Assembly (NCBI GenBank): GCA_019459485.1
Contig: JAIBEZ010000038.1
Location: forward strand, 1-37,944
DNA from: Prolixibacteraceae bacterium
Lineage (GTDB): Bacteria > Bacteroidota > Bacteroidia > Bacteroidales > Prolixibacteraceae
Direction of reading: 5' to 3'
Length of the DNA: 37,944 nt
Of the stretch, positions 27,905 through 36,237 are shown in pieces. Made by a program: the position numbers and the translations under genes. The notes under the pieces were generated by a model, which was not told the origin of the DNA, did not search any database, and was given only the letters and a program-made list of their open reading frames with translations. Each line of letters opens with the position of its first letter. Position 1 is the stretch's first letter.

Positions 27905-29422
27905 ATGCCAGTAATCAACTCAATTATTAATTGGGCCAATTTTAAACGTATATACGAAATTGAGCTATTTAAAAAGCATCCACAGGAAGTTCAGCGCGAG
28001 GTACTTTTCGAACTTTTAGAGGAGGCTTCCAATACCGAAACTGGATTAAAGTATAATTTCAGAAACATTCGCTCCGAAAAGGAGTTTCGTGAAAATGTTC
28101 CTGTTCAGACCTACGACGATATAAAAGAAACCGTTGAACGGATGATGCAGGGCGAAAAAAACCTGATTTGGCCGGGCGAAACCAAATGGTTTGCAAAATC
28201 GTCGGGAACCACCCATGATAAAAGCAAGTTTATTCCGGTGAGCAAAGATTGCCTCGAAGGCGTTCACATACGCGGCGGACGAGACGTGCTGGCCCTGTAC
28301 CTGAAAAATAATCCTGAATCGGGCATCTTGTCGGGCAAATCGCTAACCCTTGGCGGAAGCCATCGGGTAAGTAACTTTAACAACAACAGCTATTACGGCG
28401 ATCTTTCGGCCATCATCATAGAAAATATACCATTCTGGACCGAATTTTACCGGACACCTTCTACTGAAATATCGCTTCTTGAAGAGTTTGAAGAAAAAAT
28501 TGAAAAGATCATTAAACATTCGCTGGGCGAAAATGTGACATCGTTTGCCGGTGTTCCGTCGTGGTACCTGGTTTTATTAAAGCGCGTGTTGGAGGTTACC
28601 GGCAAAAGCAATATTCTGGAAGTTTGGCCCAATCTGGAAGTTTTTACCCATGGCGGGGTGAAATTTGAACCCTATCGCGAGCAATACGAAAAACTGTTCC
28701 CGGGCACACAGATGCATTACATGGAAACCTACAATGCATCGGAAGGATTTTTTGGAATTCAGGATGAGCCGGACAAGAAGGATATGTTGCTGATGCTCGA
28801 TTACGGAATTTACTACGAATTTATTCCGATGGATAAATTCCGGAGCGCTACGCCTAAAGTGATTTCACTTCAGGAGGTCGAATTAGGTGAAAATTATGCC
28901 ATGGTGATTACTACCAATGGCGGATTGTGGCGTTATGTGATTGGCGATACCATCAGGTTTACTTCGCGAAACCCGTATAAATTTCTGATTACCGGCAGAA
29001 CCAAACATTTTATAAATGCTTTTGGCGAGGAACTGATTATCGACAATGCAGAAAAAGCATTTCAGATTGCCTGTACTCGAACCGGCGCCATAATTTCGGA
29101 ATATACCGGCGGCCCGATATATATGAATGATAACCAGAAAGGGGCTCATGAGTGGGTTATTGAGTTTGAAAAACCACCACGCGATTTGGAACATTTCATT
29201 TCTTTGTTCGATGGGGCTTTGAAAACCATCAACTCGGATTACGAAGCCAAACGGCACAAAAGCCTCAGCCTTGAAATGCCACATTTTATTGTTGCAAAAA
29301 AGGGACTTTTTTACGAATGGATGAAAAACAGAGGGAAAGTTGGCGGTCAGAATAAAATACCACGCCTGTCAAACGACCGGCAATACCTCGATCAGTTAAT
29401 CGAATTGAATAATTCTTTGTAA
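27905..29422 (+). CDS. GH3 auxin-responsive promoter family protein (acyl-adenylate-forming)
   Basis: A 505-residue GH3-fold enzyme homologue. Visible motifs: ATP/phosphate loop KSSGTTHDKSKFIPVS (about residue 98 on), the YNASEGFFGIQ nucleotide motif, GGLWRYVIGDTIRF, and a C-terminal lobe beginning GRTKHFINAFGEELI. Plant GH3 proteins adenylate and amidate auxin or jasmonate. The bacterial members, common in Bacteroidota, have no established substrate, so the reaction here is likely ATP-dependent carboxylate activation and no more can be said. First gene of a plus-strand cluster with the nucleoside kinase 69 bp downstream. A hairpin-like AACTTTT/AAAAGTT lies in that gap. Confidence 0.93.
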   Translation: MPVINSIINWANFKRIYEIELFKKHPQEVQREVLFELLEEASNTETGLKYNFRNIRSEKEFRENVPVQTYDDIKETVERMMQGEKNLIWPGETKWFAKSSGTTHDKSKFIPVSKDCLEGVHIRGGRDVLALYLKNNPESGILSGKSLTLGGSHRVSNFNNNSYYGDLSAIIIENIPFWTEFYRTPSTEISLLEEFEEKIEKIIKHSLGENVTSFAGVPSWYLVLLKRVLEVTGKSNILEVWPNLEVFTHGGVKFEPYREQYEKLFPGTQMHYMETYNASEGFFGIQDEPDKKDMLLMLDYGIYYEFIPMDKFRSATPKVISLQEVELGENYAMVITTNGGLWRYVIGDTIRFTSRNPYKFLITGRTKHFINAFGEELIIDNAEKAFQIACTRTGAIISEYTGGPIYMNDNQKGAHEWVIEFEKPPRDLEHFISLFDGALKTINSDYEAKRHKSLSLEMPHFIVAKKGLFYEWMKNRGKVGGQNKIPRLSNDRQYLDQLIELNNSL

Positions 29423-29491: not shown

Positions 29492-30106
29492 ATGCACATT
29501 GCTTTAGCCGGAAATATTGGAGCGGGAAAGACTACTTTGACCGAATTACTCTCGAAACATTATAAATGGGTGGCCCATTATGAAGATGTTGATGAAAATC
29601 CTTATTTGAATGATTTTTATGAAGACATGCAACGTTGGTCGTTCAACCTTCAGATTTACTTTCTTAACAGCCGCTTTAAACAAGTAGTTGATATTCGGAA
29701 TTCATCGAAAACGGTGATTCAGGATCGCACCATATATGAAGATGCGGAGATTTTTGCACCCAACCTGCATGCCATGGGACTGATGTCAACCCGCGATTTT
29801 AACAACTACCATTCTCTTTTTCAGATGATGACCAAGTTTGTTCAGGCTCCTGATCTGCTTATTTACCTTCGTGCTTCGGTTCCTACCCTGGTTCATCAGA
29901 TTCAGAAACGCGGACGCGACTACGAAAATTCCATCAGGATTGATTACCTGAAGCAACTTAACGAACGCTACGAAGCCTGGGTGAACCGCTACAAAGCCGG
30001 TAAATTGCTGATCATTGACGTTGACCGTATTAACTTCCAGAACAATCCTGAAGATTTAAGCAATGTGATTGACAGGATTGATGCCCAGATTCATGGATTA
30101 TTTTAA
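29492..30106 (+). CDS. Deoxynucleoside kinase (dAdo/dGuo kinase family)
   Basis: 204 residues from ATG 29492 ([16 protein letters not shown]); an upstream TTG at 29465 is less likely. P-loop GNIGAGKT is at residues 7-14, [13 protein letters not shown] contains the catalytic/substrate Glu, the DRT-type motif is in [12 protein letters not shown], and the lid segment RGRDYENSI follows. It phosphorylates deoxynucleosides for salvage in the cytoplasm; purine deoxynucleosides are the usual substrates in related enzymes. The stop overlaps the first possible start of rdgB, whose product cleans up non-canonical purine nucleotides, so a nucleotide-pool pairing is plausible. Confidence 0.92.
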
Positions 30107-30111
30107 TGGTT

Positions 30112-30696
30112 ATGAAACTTGTATTTGCAACAAATAATCAGCATAAACTTCAGGAAATTACTCAATTACTCAATGGATCGTTCGAACTGCTAAGTCTGAA
30201 CGATATTGGTTGTGAGGATGATATTCCTGAAAATCAGGCTACTCTTGAAGGCAATGCTGCCGAAAAATCATTTTTCATCTATAATAAATATGGTTTAAAT
30301 TGTTTTGCCGACGATACGGGGCTTGAGATAGAAGCCTTGAACGGCGAGCCTGGCGTTTATTCGGCCCGCTATGCCGGAGAGGAGCGCAGTGCTGAAAATA
30401 ATATGGATTTGGTTTTAGATAAACTGGATAAAATAAAAAACCGGAAGGCACGTTTTAGAACAGTTGTTTCGTTGGTGATTGACGGGAACGAAACTCAATT
30501 CGAAGGCATCGTTGACGGGCAGATACTGGAAGAAAAGCGGGGAAAAACAGGCTTTGGATACGATCCGATTTTCAAACCCGACGAATCCGGTGTTTCTTTT
30601 GCAGAAATGACAATGGATGAAAAGAACAAAATCAGTCACAGGGGTAGGGCAGTGCAGAAATTAGTTGAATATTTAATCCGGCATAAAGGGAAATAA
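30112..30696 (+). CDS. rdgB: Non-canonical purine NTP pyrophosphatase (RdgB/HAM1)
   Basis: 194 residues from ATG 30112 ([12 protein letters not shown]), two codons after an alternative ATG at 30106 that overlaps the kinase stop. Family motifs are [12 protein letters not shown] (phosphate/substrate), [25 protein letters not shown] (metal binding and base pocket), GFGYDPIF, and the closing [15 protein letters not shown]. It hydrolyses ITP, dITP and XTP to monophosphates, keeping them out of DNA and RNA. The porZ ATG overlaps its stop (TAATG). Confidence 0.96.
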
Positions 30697-33029
30697 TGGC
30701 GAACAAATACCTGTTATTCATAGCATTTATCTTTCTGACAGTCTTTAGTGTCAATTCTCAGCCAACTATTGGCGAATGGACCGATTATCAATCGTATGCC
30801 CATGCCAAAAATGTGGTTGATACTGGCGAAAAAATTTATTGTGTTACTGAAGGTGGCTTGTTTTCGTACAACAAAACAGATAACAGCATTCAGAAAATGT
30901 CGGGGATTAATGGTCTTTCTGATGCAGGTGTTGATCGGCTGGCATACAGTAAAGAGAATAAATTGCTGTTAGTAGCCTATGAGAATGCAAATATTGATTT
31001 AATATTTGATACCAAAATTTTTAACCTATCCGACATCAAAAGGAAGCAAATATCCGCTGATAAAAAAATCAATAATGTATTGTTTGTCGGGAATCTGGCA
31101 TATCTCTCCTGTGGTTTCGGCATTGTGGTCATCAATCTCGAACGAAAAGAAATAAAAGATACTTATTTTATTGGTCAGGATGGCGCCTATGTCAATGTTC
31201 AGGATATGGCTACCGATGGCACCTTTTTGTATGCGGCCACTACCACCGGAATATTTAAAGCACTTGCTTCGGAACCCAACCTTCAGAATTACAACAACTG
31301 GAGCCGGATTACAAACATTCCCAATGCCAGCAAAAAGTTCAGCAAAATAAAATATTTTGAAGGGAAAATCTTTGCCAATTATACTCCCGACGAGTGGGCG
31401 CAGGACGAAATGTACCAACTGACAGAAGATAATTGGGTGCGTTTCCTACCACGTGTTAATTATGTTTCGGATGTGACGATAAGTGGGAATTACCTCGTTT
31501 TTTCCAGTAGGGAAGAGATTTTTATTTACGATGATAAACTTGAACTAATAAAGTATGTTTATCAATATTCGTTTTCAGGAAAAGAAGAAAAGCCTATCAG
31601 TACAATGTGCGCAGTTTTGGACGATCAGAATGTACTTTGGATTGCCGACCAGAAATATGGGCTGATCAAAGTCGGAACTCAAACCGAAAAAATTGTTCCC
31701 GACGGGCCCATTGACAACAAAATATTTTCGCTTTCAATGAATGGCAATGACCTTTGGATTACTCCCGGCGGCAAGTCAAATCCGTGGGGAAATCTTTATA
31801 ACCAACCGCAGTTTCAACTTAACCGCGAGGGAAAGTGGTCGGTTTTTGATCGTAATGTTTTCCCCATTTTAAACGATTTACGCGACATGGTTTGTGTTAT
31901 TTCCGACCCGAAAGATCCGGATCATTTTTTTGCAGGTTCCTGGGGCGGAGGTGTTCTCGAATTTAAAGCCGGTAAGTTTCACAAACAGCATAACAACCTC
32001 AACAGCAGCTTGCAAACCCAATTGCCAGGCCAACCAAACGATCCCTATGTCCGTATCGGCGGGATGGATTTTGATTCGAAAGGAAACCTTTGGGTAACCA
32101 ATTCTGGGGTAGCCAATGTGCTTTCTGTTTTTCAGACTGACGGACAATGGAAATCTTATGAGTTAAGTGGAATTGCCAATAATACTTTCATCGGAAAAGT
32201 GCTGGTGACCAAAGACGATGATAAATGGATTATCCTTGGCCGTGGTCAGTACATGTATGCACTTAATGGTGACGACGAACAATCTAAAATGCAAAAAGTT
32301 ACGGCCTATTTCTCCAACGGAAAGGAAGAACTTTATACGGATATGAGGGATGTAAATGCCATTGCCGAAGATCAAAATGGTGAATTATGGCTGGGCACAT
32401 CAGGCGGAGTGGCAGTATTCACAAATCCCCAAAAGATATGGGAAGATGCCACAATGTTTGCAACACGCCCCGGATTAGACCTGAACGATGGAAAATTTCA
32501 TCCTTTGCTCGAAAAAGAATCAATTACCGCCATCGCTATTGATGGGGCAAACCGGAAATGGATTGGAACCAAAACTTCCGGCGTATTTTTAATTTCTGAA
32601 AATGGTGATACGGAACTTGAACATTTTAATATGGAGAACAGTCCGCTGCCAACCGATGAAATTACCGACATCGCAATTAACCAAAAATCCGGCGAAGTTT
32701 TTATCGGGACCTCAGTCGGGTTGATTTCGTACATGGGCGAAGCAACTGCCGGCAATGAAGAATTTGCTGATGTTTATGTCTATCCAAACCCGGTTCGCGA
32801 AACTTATGAAGGTCCGATCGTTGTAAAAGGACTGGTTGAAGATACCGATTTACGAATTACCGATATTAGCGGGAACCTGGTGCACAAAACTACTTCACTC
32901 GGCGGCCAGGCAATCTGGGATGGTAAAAACTTAAACGGAAACCGTTGCAAAACCGGAGTCTATCTGGTTTTTATGAGCGATGCATCAGGAAATAAAACGA
33001 TGGTGACCAAACTTTTATTTATCCATTAA
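30696..33029 (+). CDS. porZ: PorZ-like beta-propeller protein of the type IX secretion system
   Basis: 777 residues, nearly the same length as Porphyromonas PorZ. It has a signal peptide (1-21, ending SVNSQ), then GEWTDYQSYAHAKNVV, and repeated two-component-regulator-type propeller blades (for example ENKLLLVAYENANIDLI and GELWLGTSGGVAVF) filling two propellers. A type-A T9SS sorting domain starts near residue 691 (YPNP at 696-699) and ends MVTKLLFIH. In Porphyromonas, PorZ is a surface protein of the attachment complex that hands anionic LPS to the sortase PorU. Family and synteny with downstream recO are usual in Bacteroidota. This implies a functional T9SS elsewhere in the genome. Confidence 0.9.
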   Translation: MANKYLLFIAFIFLTVFSVNSQPTIGEWTDYQSYAHAKNVVDTGEKIYCVTEGGLFSYNKTDNSIQKMSGINGLSDAGVDRLAYSKENKLLLVAYENANIDLIFDTKIFNLSDIKRKQISADKKINNVLFVGNLAYLSCGFGIVVINLERKEIKDTYFIGQDGAYVNVQDMATDGTFLYAATTTGIFKALASEPNLQNYNNWSRITNIPNASKKFSKIKYFEGKIFANYTPDEWAQDEMYQLTEDNWVRFLPRVNYVSDVTISGNYLVFSSREEIFIYDDKLELIKYVYQYSFSGKEEKPISTMCAVLDDQNVLWIADQKYGLIKVGTQTEKIVPDGPIDNKIFSLSMNGNDLWITPGGKSNPWGNLYNQPQFQLNREGKWSVFDRNVFPILNDLRDMVCVISDPKDPDHFFAGSWGGGVLEFKAGKFHKQHNNLNSSLQTQLPGQPNDPYVRIGGMDFDSKGNLWVTNSGVANVLSVFQTDGQWKSYELSGIANNTFIGKVLVTKDDDKWIILGRGQYMYALNGDDEQSKMQKVTAYFSNGKEELYTDMRDVNAIAEDQNGELWLGTSGGVAVFTNPQKIWEDATMFATRPGLDLNDGKFHPLLEKESITAIAIDGANRKWIGTKTSGVFLISENGDTELEHFNMENSPLPTDEITDIAINQKSGEVFIGTSVGLISYMGEATAGNEEFADVYVYPNPVRETYEGPIVVKGLVEDTDLRITDISGNLVHKTTSLGGQAIWDGKNLNGNRCKTGVYLVFMSDASGNKTMVTKLLFIH

Positions 33030-33041
33030 AACTGACAACCT

Positions 33042-33767
33042 GTGCTCGAAAAAACTCGGGGCATCTTTTTACATTCAGTAAAATATTCCGAAACCAGCAT
33101 TATTGCTGTAATTTATACTGAATCTTTTGGCCGCCAGTCGTTCATGATTAATGGTGCAAGAAGTAAAAAATCGACTGTTAAATCGGTTGCTTTTCAACCA
33201 CTTTATCTTCTCGATCTTGAGATTTATTACAAAACTGGCCGCGAAATCCATCGGTTGAAAGATGTCCGGATTGCAAATCCTTTTTCGACCATTCCGTTTG
33301 ATATCCGGAAAAGTTCGCAGGTAATTTTTTTGGCCGAAATTCTTTACAAATGTTTAAAGGAAGAAGAGCCCAATCCGGGCTTGTTTCATTTTATATACAA
33401 TTCATTGAGTTTTCTTGATTTGTCTGATCAGGGGATTAGTAATTTCCACGTTTGGTTCCTGTTTAAACTGACACAGTTTTTAGGAATCTATCCAAGTCGT
33501 GACAATGCGCTGATCAGCAATTATTTTGACTTGCAAAAAGCAAGGTTTGTGAGCAATGAGCCAATTCACAATCAGTTTACCGATAAGCACATAACCGGAT
33601 TGTTGGCAATGCTTTTCGATATTGATTTTTCGTCGCTTGGGAAACTGGAATATTCTCAGAATGAACGGCGTCAATTGCTCGATAAGTTACTCGAATATTA
33701 CAGAATTCATTTTGACAACATGGGTGAGATAAAATCATTGGACATTTTGAGAGAAGTTTTACGCTGA
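33042..33767 (+). CDS. recO: DNA repair protein RecO
   Basis: 241 residues from GTG 33042, 12 bp after porZ. The N-terminal OB domain (1-80) starts KTRGIFLHSVKYSETSIIAVIYTE, and the helical domain follows (for example FLAEILYKCLKEEEPNPGLF and FLFKLTQFLGIYPSRDN). RecO anneals strands and loads RecA with RecR in the RecF pathway. The Cys4 zinc motif found in many RecO proteins is absent: the only Cys is in KCLKEEE. That is common in Bacteroidota. No ATG in a good position exists upstream, so GTG is the natural start. Confidence 0.93.
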   Translation: MLEKTRGIFLHSVKYSETSIIAVIYTESFGRQSFMINGARSKKSTVKSVAFQPLYLLDLEIYYKTGREIHRLKDVRIANPFSTIPFDIRKSSQVIFLAEILYKCLKEEEPNPGLFHFIYNSLSFLDLSDQGISNFHVWFLFKLTQFLGIYPSRDNALISNYFDLQKARFVSNEPIHNQFTDKHITGLLAMLFDIDFSSLGKLEYSQNERRQLLDKLLEYYRIHFDNMGEIKSLDILREVLR

Positions 33768-33839: not shown

Positions 33840-33847
33840 TAACTTTG
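33840..33847 (+). promoter_or_regulatory. Promoter -7 box of the aminotransferase-like gene
   Basis: TAACTTTG, the same sequence as in the regulator promoter at 10873, ending 18 bp before ATG 33866. The -33 is poor (TGC at 20 bp). It suggests that this gene is read separately from recO. Confidence 0.45.
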
Positions 33848-33865: not shown

Positions 33866-35017
33866 ATGTCTCAAACGAAATTACTCGTCACTAAAGGAAG
33901 TATATTTTCCGCTGTTAATAAACTGGTTACCGAAACCGGTGCAATTGATCTTTCTTTAGGGAAAACTGATTTTCCGTGCCCTGAAAAACTGGCAGAACTG
34001 GCAGCAACATATATTCGGTCGGGATACAATAATTATGCACCGCACGAAGGGGTCAGCGAATTACGTGCTGTAATTTCTACAAGAGTAAAAAACCTTTACA
34101 AACGCTCATACAATCCTGAAACAGAAATTACCATCACAGCAGGTCATGTTCAGGCAATAATGACCGCTATAAGTTCGGTGGTAAAAGATGAAGACGAAGT
34201 AATTCTTTTTGAGCCCGCCTACGAATCGTATGCTCCGGCAATTGTACATGCTGGTGCCCGCCCGGTTTATGTTGCCCTTAAATCACCTGATTTCCATATC
34301 GACTGGGAAGAAGTCCGGAAAATGGTTTCTTCCAAAACACGGATGATTATTCTCAATTCACCGCACAATCCCAGCGGTTCTGTTTTATCTGAATCGGATC
34401 TGATTCAGTTGCAAAAACTAATTAACGGAACCAACATAGTTGTTCTGAGCGACGAGGTTTTCGAATCAATCGTGTTTGATAACAGCACCCATCAAAGTGT
34501 AGCCAAATTTGACAAGCTGGCAGAGCGGAGTTTCGTGGTTTCTTCATTCGGCCCGGTTTTCAATATCAATGGCTGGGGTCTCGCTTACATTCTGGCACCC
34601 GAGAAATTAATGAATGAATTCCGGAGGATACAGCAATTCCAGATTTACAATGTGAATACTCCGCTTCAGTATGCTCTTTCAGAATATTTACTGACGGAAG
34701 ATTCGAAGAAGGATATTTCAGAAATGTATCAGGGCAAACGAAACTATTTTAACCGGTTGTTGGGCGGAAGTTTGTTTAAGATTATTCCTTCTCAGGGAAG
34801 TTATTTCGAAATACTTGATTATTCTGCCATTTCTGATGAACCGGATACCGACTTCACGTACCGTCTGGCAACAGAATATGGAGTGGGAGTTGTTCCTGTT
34901 TCCGCTTTTCTGCACGAAAAAAACAAACAGAAAATGGTACGTATTTGTTTTGCGAAAAACAACGAAACCCTCGAAGCTGCTGCTGAACGTTTACGATTGG
35001 TTACTTCCTTAAAATAG
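33866..35017 (+). CDS. Aminotransferase class I/II-fold protein lacking the PLP lysine
   Basis: 383 residues from ATG 33866; an upstream TTG at 33845 is unlikely. The whole protein aligns by eye with methionine/kynurenine-type aminotransferases: NNYAPHEGVSELRAVIS, DEVILFEPAYESYAPAI, NSPHNPSGSV (N168), SDEVFESIVF (D196) and the carboxylate Arg in VRICFAKN. The Schiff-base segment, normally SFGKT, reads SFGPV: codon CCG at 34553-34555 makes residue 230 Pro. The PLP-contacting Tyr of DEVYE is Phe199, and the GAT phosphate loop is GHV. The frame is intact, with no stops. So it is either a pseudoenzyme or an enzyme with another chemistry. It lies alone between recO and the sugar-binding lipoprotein. 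Confidence 0.88.
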   Translation: MSQTKLLVTKGSIFSAVNKLVTETGAIDLSLGKTDFPCPEKLAELAATYIRSGYNNYAPHEGVSELRAVISTRVKNLYKRSYNPETEITITAGHVQAIMTAISSVVKDEDEVILFEPAYESYAPAIVHAGARPVYVALKSPDFHIDWEEVRKMVSSKTRMIILNSPHNPSGSVLSESDLIQLQKLINGTNIVVLSDEVFESIVFDNSTHQSVAKFDKLAERSFVVSSFGPVFNINGWGLAYILAPEKLMNEFRRIQQFQIYNVNTPLQYALSEYLLTEDSKKDISEMYQGKRNYFNRLLGGSLFKIIPSQGSYFEILDYSAISDEPDTDFTYRLATEYGVGVVPVSAFLHEKNKQKMVRICFAKNNETLEAAAERLRLVTSLK

Positions 35018-35241: not shown

Positions 35242-36237
35242 ATGAAGACCAAGATTTTAATTTATTTATTACTGGCAGGTTTAGTACTTGTTGGTTGTTC
35301 ATCCGGAAAGCCAAAGATTGGCTTGCTGGTTCACAGTTATGATACGCCACGCTGGCAAAGTGATGAAAAATATTTTACCGAAGCTGTCGATCAGCTTGGG
35401 GGTATTTCTGTTGTAAAAATGGCCGAAAATGATGCACAGAAACAAATTCAGCAGGCCAAAGAATTGATCGACGAGGGAATCTCGGTTTTGGTGGTAGTTC
35501 CGGTTGACCAATTTTCTGCCGGACAAATCGTTGATATGGCACATAAAAATAACATCAAGGTGATTGCTTACGATAGGTTGATCAACAATTGCTGGCTCGA
35601 TTATTACGTGTCTTCTGATAATGTGCGAATTGGTGAAATTCAGGCGGAATACCTTACAAACACAATACCTGCAGGTAATTATGCCCTTATCGGTGGTCCT
35701 ACATACGACAACAACAGCCGGATGATTTTTCTCGGACAAATGAATATTATACAGCCATACATTGACAAAGGCCAGATAAGCCTGATTTACAATGTTTTTT
35801 CGGATTATTGGACCGAAGCTGAAGGTTACAAGCATACTTTGCAGCTTATTGAAACTGCCAAAGGAGATGTGGATGCTATTCTTGCCGGAAATGATGCCAT
35901 TGCCCTGGGAGCATTAAGGGCGTTGAAGGAGAAAGGGTTGGCTGGTAAAGTAAAGCTTGCCGGACAGGATGCCGACTTGGCGAACATTCAGGAAATTATG
36001 AAGGGCAATCAAACGATGACAGTATATAAACCAATTAAAACCATGGCATATACTGTAGCCGAACTAGCCATCCATTTGGCAGATGAAAGTCCTGTTCCAC
36101 TCGCAACTTCGACTATCAGTAACGGTAACAGGTTAGTTCCTTCCTATCTGGTCAATCCAATGGCCATCAATGAGAGCAATATTCAAATGACCGTTGTTGC
36201 AGAAGGCTATCAGGAGGCAGACAAAATTTTGAAGTAA
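35242..36237 (+). CDS. D-xylose-type periplasmic binding lipoprotein (orphan XylF-like)
   Basis: 331 residues. A lipoprotein signal peptide ends in the lipobox LVGC (Cys at about residue 19), followed by SSGKPKIGLLVHSYDTPRW. The type-I periplasmic-binding fold of XylF is clear: LVVVPVDQFSAGQIV, VIAYDRLI, DYYVSSDN, AILAGNDAIALGALRALKEKG, KLAGQDADLANI and MTVYKPIK. In Proteobacteria XylF delivers D-xylose to an ABC importer; here no ATPase or permease gene is next to it. Bacteroidota seldom use such importers, so sensing or a partner encoded elsewhere is possible. The 224-bp upstream gap shows nothing I can call. A strong terminator follows. Confidence 0.9.
   Translation: MKTKILIYLLLAGLVLVGCSSGKPKIGLLVHSYDTPRWQSDEKYFTEAVDQLGGISVVKMAENDAQKQIQQAKELIDEGISVLVVVPVDQFSAGQIVDMAHKNNIKVIAYDRLINNCWLDYYVSSDNVRIGEIQAEYLTNTIPAGNYALIGGPTYDNNSRMIFLGQMNIIQPYIDKGQISLIYNVFSDYWTEAEGYKHTLQLIETAKGDVDAILAGNDAIALGALRALKEKGLAGKVKLAGQDADLANIQEIMKGNQTMTVYKPIKTMAYTVAELAIHLADESPVPLATSTISNGNRLVPSYLVNPMAINESNIQMTVVAEGYQEADKILK

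Follow-up and report, generated by a model that had tools for sequence, protein, structure and literature searches.

Can a protein that keeps the fold of a class I aminotransferase, and has a proline in place of the lysine that forms the Schiff base with PLP, still work as a transaminase, and if it does not, for what is it kept? The question is raised by one gene in a 37,944-nucleotide stretch of Prolixibacteraceae DNA (the window; Table 1). A sequence-only reading of the window had described an intact frame of 383 codons containing the motifs SFGPV (P230), DEVFE (F199), GHV (93-95) and GWG (G238), together with HNPSG (N168), SDEV (D196) and VRICFAK (R359). Translation confirms the frame, which ends in a stop after 383 residues, and every one of the motifs. 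In the alignment with the closest solved relative by sequence, E. coli YbdL (PDB code 1u08, 300 bits), P230 stands opposite the Lys of SSFGK, in agreement with the earlier assignment of a proline to the Schiff-base position. The same alignment pairs F199 with the Tyr of DEVYE, V95 with the Thr of GAT and G238 with the Lys of GWK; with V95 and G238, the PLP phosphate cup (the Thr of GAT and the Lys/Arg of GWK) is absent from the window protein. The aminotransferase fold, also part of that reading, is retained. The AF2 model (pLDDT 89.6, pTM 0.89, residues 1-10 below 50) finds 1u08 as its best fold match in Foldseek, with TM 0.93-0.96 at 40% identity. The protein scores 171 bits with Pfam Aminotran_1_2 (PF00155; gathering threshold 19.7), a result that speaks for homology only, and 462.2 bits with NCBIfam NF006569 (PRK09082, "methionine aminotransferase"; cut-off 420). 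Ten other Prolixibacteraceae members scanned with NF006569 divide evenly, five above the cut-off and five below, so that 6 of 11 pass when the window protein is included.

Table 1. Features of the window that bear on the Lys-less gene. Codon numbers are those of its 383-residue product; roles from PMC9309667 follow excerpts of that paper.
Feature	Position	Strand	Remarks
rdgB/Ham1 NTPase, conserved neighbor	30106..30696	+	Pfam Ham1p_like; synteny
porZ (type IX secretion component), conserved neighbor	30696..33029	+	Pfam PorZ_N_b_propeller; PDB 5m11, E 8.5e-76; synteny
recO, conserved upstream neighbor	33042..33767	+	Pfam RecO_N, RecO_C; synteny
TAACTTTG, Bacteroidota -7-type promoter box (TAnnTTTG)	33840..33847	+	26 nt upstream of the ATG
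Lys-less class I aminotransferase-fold gene	33866..35017	+	383 aa; profile, alignment, AF2, Foldseek
Codons 94-95, His-Val	34145..34150	+	stand where the GAT phosphate loop has Ala-Thr
Codon 168, Asn of HNP	34367..34369	+	kept in 81/82 readable family loci
Codon 199, Phe	34460..34462	+	takes the place of the Tyr touching the pyridine ring (predicted role after PMC9309667)
Codon 230, CCG = Pro	34553..34555	+	replaces the Schiff-base Lys; 1u08 alignment
Codon 238, Gly	34577..34579	+	replaces the PLP-phosphate Lys/Arg (predicted role after PMC9309667)
Codon 359, Arg, binding the substrate alpha-carboxylate in class I	34940..34942	+	kept in 80/81 readable loci (predicted role after PMC9309667)

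A proline at this position might have come from faulty sequencing or assembly, or from a local mutation of recent date. The window protein was searched in 101 relatives and then in 140 Prolixibacteraceae genomes. Ortholog matches at E <= 1e-60 were obtained in 81 of the 140 genomes, representing 16 of 23 genera, and all 81 carry a Lys-less copy. Position 230 is readable in 82 of the 83 family loci, where it is Pro in 64, Ala in 8, Thr in 4, Ser in 2, and His, Arg, Asp and Lys in one each. The sequence-only reading had allowed that homologs of the same clade might all keep the lysine; 81 of the 82 readable loci lack it. The lone lysine is found in a second copy (L182, G157:C391) from a genome rated 7% contaminated; this copy groups in the tree with rows of other families and looks foreign, the product of contamination or transfer. 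Within the window's own genus the residue is Pro in 23 of 23 readable loci, and it is spelled by three codons (CCG 15, CCT 6, CCC 2); Pro230 has thus been kept through synonymous changes, and an error or a recent mutation is practically out of the question. There are no internal stops in the 82 family matches listed. We regard a real, conserved Lys-less clade as virtually certain.

A second escape, a different lysine that holds PLP, had also been raised, and it is unsupported by the alignment. In the 80 Lys-less Prolixibacteraceae rows the lysines conserved at 85% or more are at positions 5, 139, 152, 157, 291, 352 and 364, and none of these lies within 60 residues of position 230 along the sequence. 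Five of the seven are also the majority residue in 116 Lys-containing (Lys+) homologs, in which K157 and K352 are minority residues; this comparison set consists of the 134 Lys+ rows of the tree described below, minus those adjacent to recO and those of families f11, f19, f56, f65, f82, f97 and f115. Of the 140 genomes, 59 are without a match at E <= 1e-60, and these include 42 of the 103 best assemblies, so that the gene can be dispensed with. A search for a remnant near recO in 11 genomes without the gene returned no match better than E 0.37.

What has gone along with the lysine can be read against the active enzymes. In class I, according to excerpts of PMC9309667, the Schiff-base Lys of active enzymes is absolutely conserved, an Asp holds the ring nitrogen, and an Asn and a Tyr touch the ring; the PLP phosphate is held by an Arg, a Thr and Ser residues, probably with a further contact from a Tyr of the other subunit, and another Arg binds the alpha-carboxylate. 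We assigned these roles to window positions by motif and alignment, as predictions. In counts over the family loci that include the single Lys copy, Thr95 is lost in 77 of 82, the basic phosphate ligand Lys238 in 81 of 82, and Tyr199 in 78 of 82 (Phe in 76). Asp196 is lost in 38 of 82 (Asn in 33) and kept in 44; Ser227 is kept in 76 of 82, Asn168 in 81 of 82 and Arg359 in 80 of 81. The N-terminal SQGFPDF loop is changed, and Tyr57 and Tyr119 are relaxed. The sites counted above are fixed or nearly fixed in the 116 Lys+ homologs. As judged from these residues, the grip on B6 is largely dismantled, and what stays is the Arg for the carboxylate together with the HNP Asn. Since loss of the lysine stops normal transamination, the protein would very probably not be a transaminase; and as the loss of Thr95, Lys238 and Tyr199 should lower the affinity for B6, it is probably no longer a stable binder of PLP.

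The gene is nevertheless not in ordinary decay, as had been claimed from the window alone, and in the window's genus this judgment is borne out on two counts, the rate of substitution and the fixed promoter box. The median dN/dS within the genus is 0.037 (NG86; computed over the 164 pairs, out of 253, whose dS is finite and exceeds 0.05). The box, TAACTTTG, answers to the promoter box that the sequence-only reading had ascribed to the gene; its pattern TAnnTTTG, which we take to be the Bacteroidota promoter consensus, recurs at -26 to -28 in each of the 20 leaders examined from this genus, with drift in the remaining spacer. The genus has 21 distinct rows; the one that is not among these leaders is truncated by a contig end. 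The alternative TTG start of the ORF listing, at 33845, is inside the box, which makes the ATG at 33866 the likely start. The 33 loci showing all four genes (seven loci named as duplicates were dropped) give 528 pairs. The Lys-less protein is the better conserved of the two when set against RecO in 502 of these pairs and against PorZ in 527, but against RdgB in only 127. On sequence grounds, then, the gene is in the window's genus a kept, expressed-looking one under strong purifying selection. Two long-branch members look looser: L060, with N168D and Asp196 lost, and L062, with R230, Asp196 lost and a location not found beside recO. Candidate sites of new constraint, with helix 281-298 (G290, Y294, R297) seemingly a strong case, numbered 11-20 on 22 thinned rows, where random halves of the Lys+ rows gave a mean of 0.8 such sites and at most 5; but Lys+ clades compared with each other gave 0-13, and over all 80 rows G290 stands at 58 and R297 at 55.

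The neighborhood was compared in 49 flanked Prolixibacteraceae loci including the window, a number of which represent one contig seen in both of two collections. Of these loci, 47 have recO, 45 have rdgB and 40 have porZ; the usual order is rdgB-porZ-recO-Lys-less gene. In the 225-row set, recO lies within 900 nt upstream in 84 of 90 determinable non-Lys rows versus 9 of 128 determinable Lys+ rows, although the neighborhoods classed as "other" may hide a diverged recO. Downstream, a gene that we take from family knowledge of the gene pair to be omega-amidase-like follows 53 of 134 Lys+ rows versus 0 of 91 non-Lys rows. Because most non-Lys rows form one clade, both contrasts amount to few independent events. 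A link between transaminase and omega-amidase is described in excerpts of PMC9309667 and PMC6302742. Loss of the lysine together with the omega-amidase was considered and rejected: 55 of the 61 family genomes searched have a homolog at another place (counted by homology), among them the window's genome and genomes without the Lys-less gene. Functional coupling to recO was rejected as well, for porZ and recO remain adjacent in 11 of 11 examined family genomes without the Lys-less gene, and the linkage to recO may be inherited order only. Just downstream of the gene, at 35242-36237, the window encodes a lipoprotein-like periplasmic sugar-binding protein (Peripla_BP_4) to which no ORF of the 48 further loci in the comparison has a match; at 27905-29422 lies the gene for a GH3-family protein of bacterial type with the N, M and C domains of GH3, and after it comes a deoxynucleoside kinase gene.

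When was the lysine lost? In a tree of 61 rows, made without the fragments L026, L028, L069 and L071 and the distant L070, all 46 Prolixibacteraceae rows form one clade (99/100). A larger tree of 225 rows was made without columns 228-232, so that the lysine position itself is excluded; L026, L028, L069-L071, the paralogs L002-L006, the wide-flank/amidase loci L186-L196 and three duplicate loci were left out, and the merging of identical proteins reduced 242 rows to 225. Here the Prolixibacteraceae clade (80 rows, with L182 outside) has an SH-aLRT of 99, and all 91 non-Lys rows fall within one clade of 105 rows (SH-aLRT 97) that also holds 14 Lys+ rows. The Lys state changes 7 times on the 225-row tree and 6 times on a tree of 49 chosen rows, with at least five changes forced in each. 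In the 49-row tree a group with Glu at position 230, made up of f30 and a Marinilabiliaceae record, is joined to Prolixibacteraceae, though the support is modest (81/86). Elsewhere the lysine has given way to I or V in f97, to I in f11, to E in a second copy of f90, and to R in f56 and f82. At the level of the order, 142 genomes have a match, from which 30 loci and then 40 more, picked for weak matches or families of interest, were read. On these trees the loss of the lysine is reconstructed as ancestral to the Prolixibacteraceae orthologs and recurrent in related families, with some placements resting on long branches.

The related families show the loss at different stages. The four f97 loci (L254-L257) are linked to recO and all have Gly for the carboxylate Arg (359); position 230 is Lys in two of them and I or V in the other two, so that f97 shows this loss at a mixed stage. 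The Arg is already gone from the two that have Lys, and catalysis would thus seem to have been abandoned in f97 before the lysine. Family f11 is the opposite of f97, with the lysine lost and the phosphate cup intact: L059 has Ile at the Lys position with GAT, Tyr199 and GWR in place, L230 of the same genus keeps Lys, and the loss in L059 is probably recent, to judge from this pattern. Glu at position 230 is found in L113, L067, L228, L229 and L227, which are relatives from f30 and a Marinilabiliaceae record; four of these five follow recO, and L228 and L229 combine the Glu with Phe for Asn168.

What, then, does the Prolixibacteraceae protein do? The reading that we prefer, and to which we give an even chance, is that of a pseudoenzyme descended from a transaminase and probably free of PLP, which would serve without catalysis in binding or regulation and have a small carboxylate as its ligand. 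Its ancestor would have been a YbdL/KAT-type (methionine/glutamine) transaminase whose gene came to lie after rdgB-porZ-recO and was then released from catalysis. The Schiff-base Lys has disappeared and the contacts to PLP phosphate and ring have mostly been lost or replaced, with the fold kept; the old substrate pocket would now take a small carboxylate (an amino or 2-oxo acid), and a change in domain closure, or a partner, would pass the signal on. Retention of Arg359 and Asn168 together with the fold favors a small-carboxylate binder over a bare scaffold, and Asn194 of AAT also helps to bind the substrate carboxylate. Conservation of the two residues could also be structural. The ligand is one that we infer only, and for the binding of a carboxylate as such we would put the chance slightly under even. 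More tentatively, and with some doubt on our side, the protein might be a receptor without B6 that recognizes an amino acid or a 2-oxo acid and signals nitrogen or sulfur amino-acid status in Prolixibacteraceae, perhaps jointly with Marinilabiliaceae-type relatives. The parent recO-linked gene would in that case have left catalysis before the lysine was lost, which would account for its independent loss in several families.

Alternatively, the protein might be a scaffold or partner subunit whose old active site is unused, paired with a catalytic transaminase, as LCB1/SPT1 is with SPT2, or with RecO or PorZ. We consider this unlikely. SPT1/LCB1 is indeed described, in excerpts of PMC6148460, as a Lys-less subunit that needs SPT2, and the position of the gene after recO in 84 non-Lys rows would fit a partner role, except that most of these rows are one clade and reflect few events, not 84. 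Against a transaminase partner, the best of five further matches within the window's genome shows 25% identity, and a second match at E <= 1e-60 occurs in just 1 of the 81 family genomes; with no close Lys+ partner found, an LCB1-like subunit becomes less likely. Against RecO or PorZ, the two genes stay together where the Lys-less gene is absent, and the latter has its own promoter box. PorZ, moreover, is an exported protein, and in the Lys-less protein no signal peptide is seen by eye.

An enzyme with a different chemistry, using other pocket residues either without PLP or with loosely held B6, is improbable in our view. The Asn/Arg pair is kept, the Glu at position 230 is shared by 5 of 5 rows of f30 and the Marinilabiliaceae record, and fold-type I enzymes that use His for the Lys, such as ColD, are known. 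Within Prolixibacteraceae, however, seven residues other than Lys (P, A, T, S, H, D and R) occur at 230, two of which, Pro and Ala, are incapable of acid-base work, and most loci have D or N at 196. Such variation leaves no common catalytic residue at these positions and makes a new chemistry at 230 unlikely. It is quite improbable, too, that PLP or PMP is held without a covalent bond, as in a B6 buffer or a slow half-transaminase. Conservation of Asp196 (44 of 82), Ser227 (76 of 82) and Asn168 (81 of 82) is in its favor, and on the first two of these weak PLP binding is possible; but Thr95, Lys238 and Tyr199 are lost nearly throughout, and Tyr57 and Tyr119 are relaxed. Slow decay of a redundant gene, to which the repeated Lys losses, the 59 of 140 family genomes without a match (E <= 1e-60) and the fast-evolving L060 and L062 might point, is a remote prospect given the low dN/dS, the absence of stops in the 82 family matches listed, the fixed box and a protein more conserved than RecO, and for the window's genus alone the dN/dS result rules it out.

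The pseudoenzyme reading has a practical consequence. The name "methionine aminotransferase", which the NCBI model would give to the window protein, is probably wrong, and as NF006569 would so name at least some members (6 of the 11 scanned pass), metabolic reconstructions would be misled. Among the matches listed from the open-licence PMC literature there was no paper on the Lys-less Prolixibacteraceae clade. With neighboring families in mixed states, some with Lys kept and Arg lost, others with Lys lost and the phosphate cup kept, these proteins offer a usable system for studying how pseudoenzymes arise from enzymes and what is then selected.

Comparison with known systems places the family more closely. 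The YbdL/KAT-clade methionine (glutamine) aminotransferase (1u08; NF006569) has the same fold, length and substrate-carboxylate Arg. Compared with it, the window family is without the Schiff-base Lys, the GAT Thr, Tyr199 and Lys238, its SQGFPDF loop is changed, and its gene adjoins recO and not an omega-amidase gene. The window protein is like GcvPA, the Lys-less fold-type I pseudo-subunit of the two-subunit glycine decarboxylase, but GcvPA works with a catalytic partner, GcvPB. ColD-type dehydratases have a natural His for the Schiff-base Lys on an aspartate aminotransferase fold and keep both B6 and the conserved His, whereas the chemistry of residue 230 is unconserved in Prolixibacteraceae. 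SPT1/LCB1 of serine palmitoyltransferase is likewise of fold-type I and selected without the PLP Lys, according to excerpts of PMC6148460; LCB1 has a close Lys+ partner, LCB2, whereas none was found for the Prolixibacteraceae protein. In pyridoxamine:pyruvate aminotransferase, as excerpts of PMC9309667 describe it, B6 is a substrate and not a bound cofactor, and the enzyme keeps its active Lys (K197) and the Asp. Lys-less proteins of fold-type I are thus already known, and those that can be named are mainly partner subunits; here a seemingly stand-alone Lys-less protein is kept across many genera of one family.
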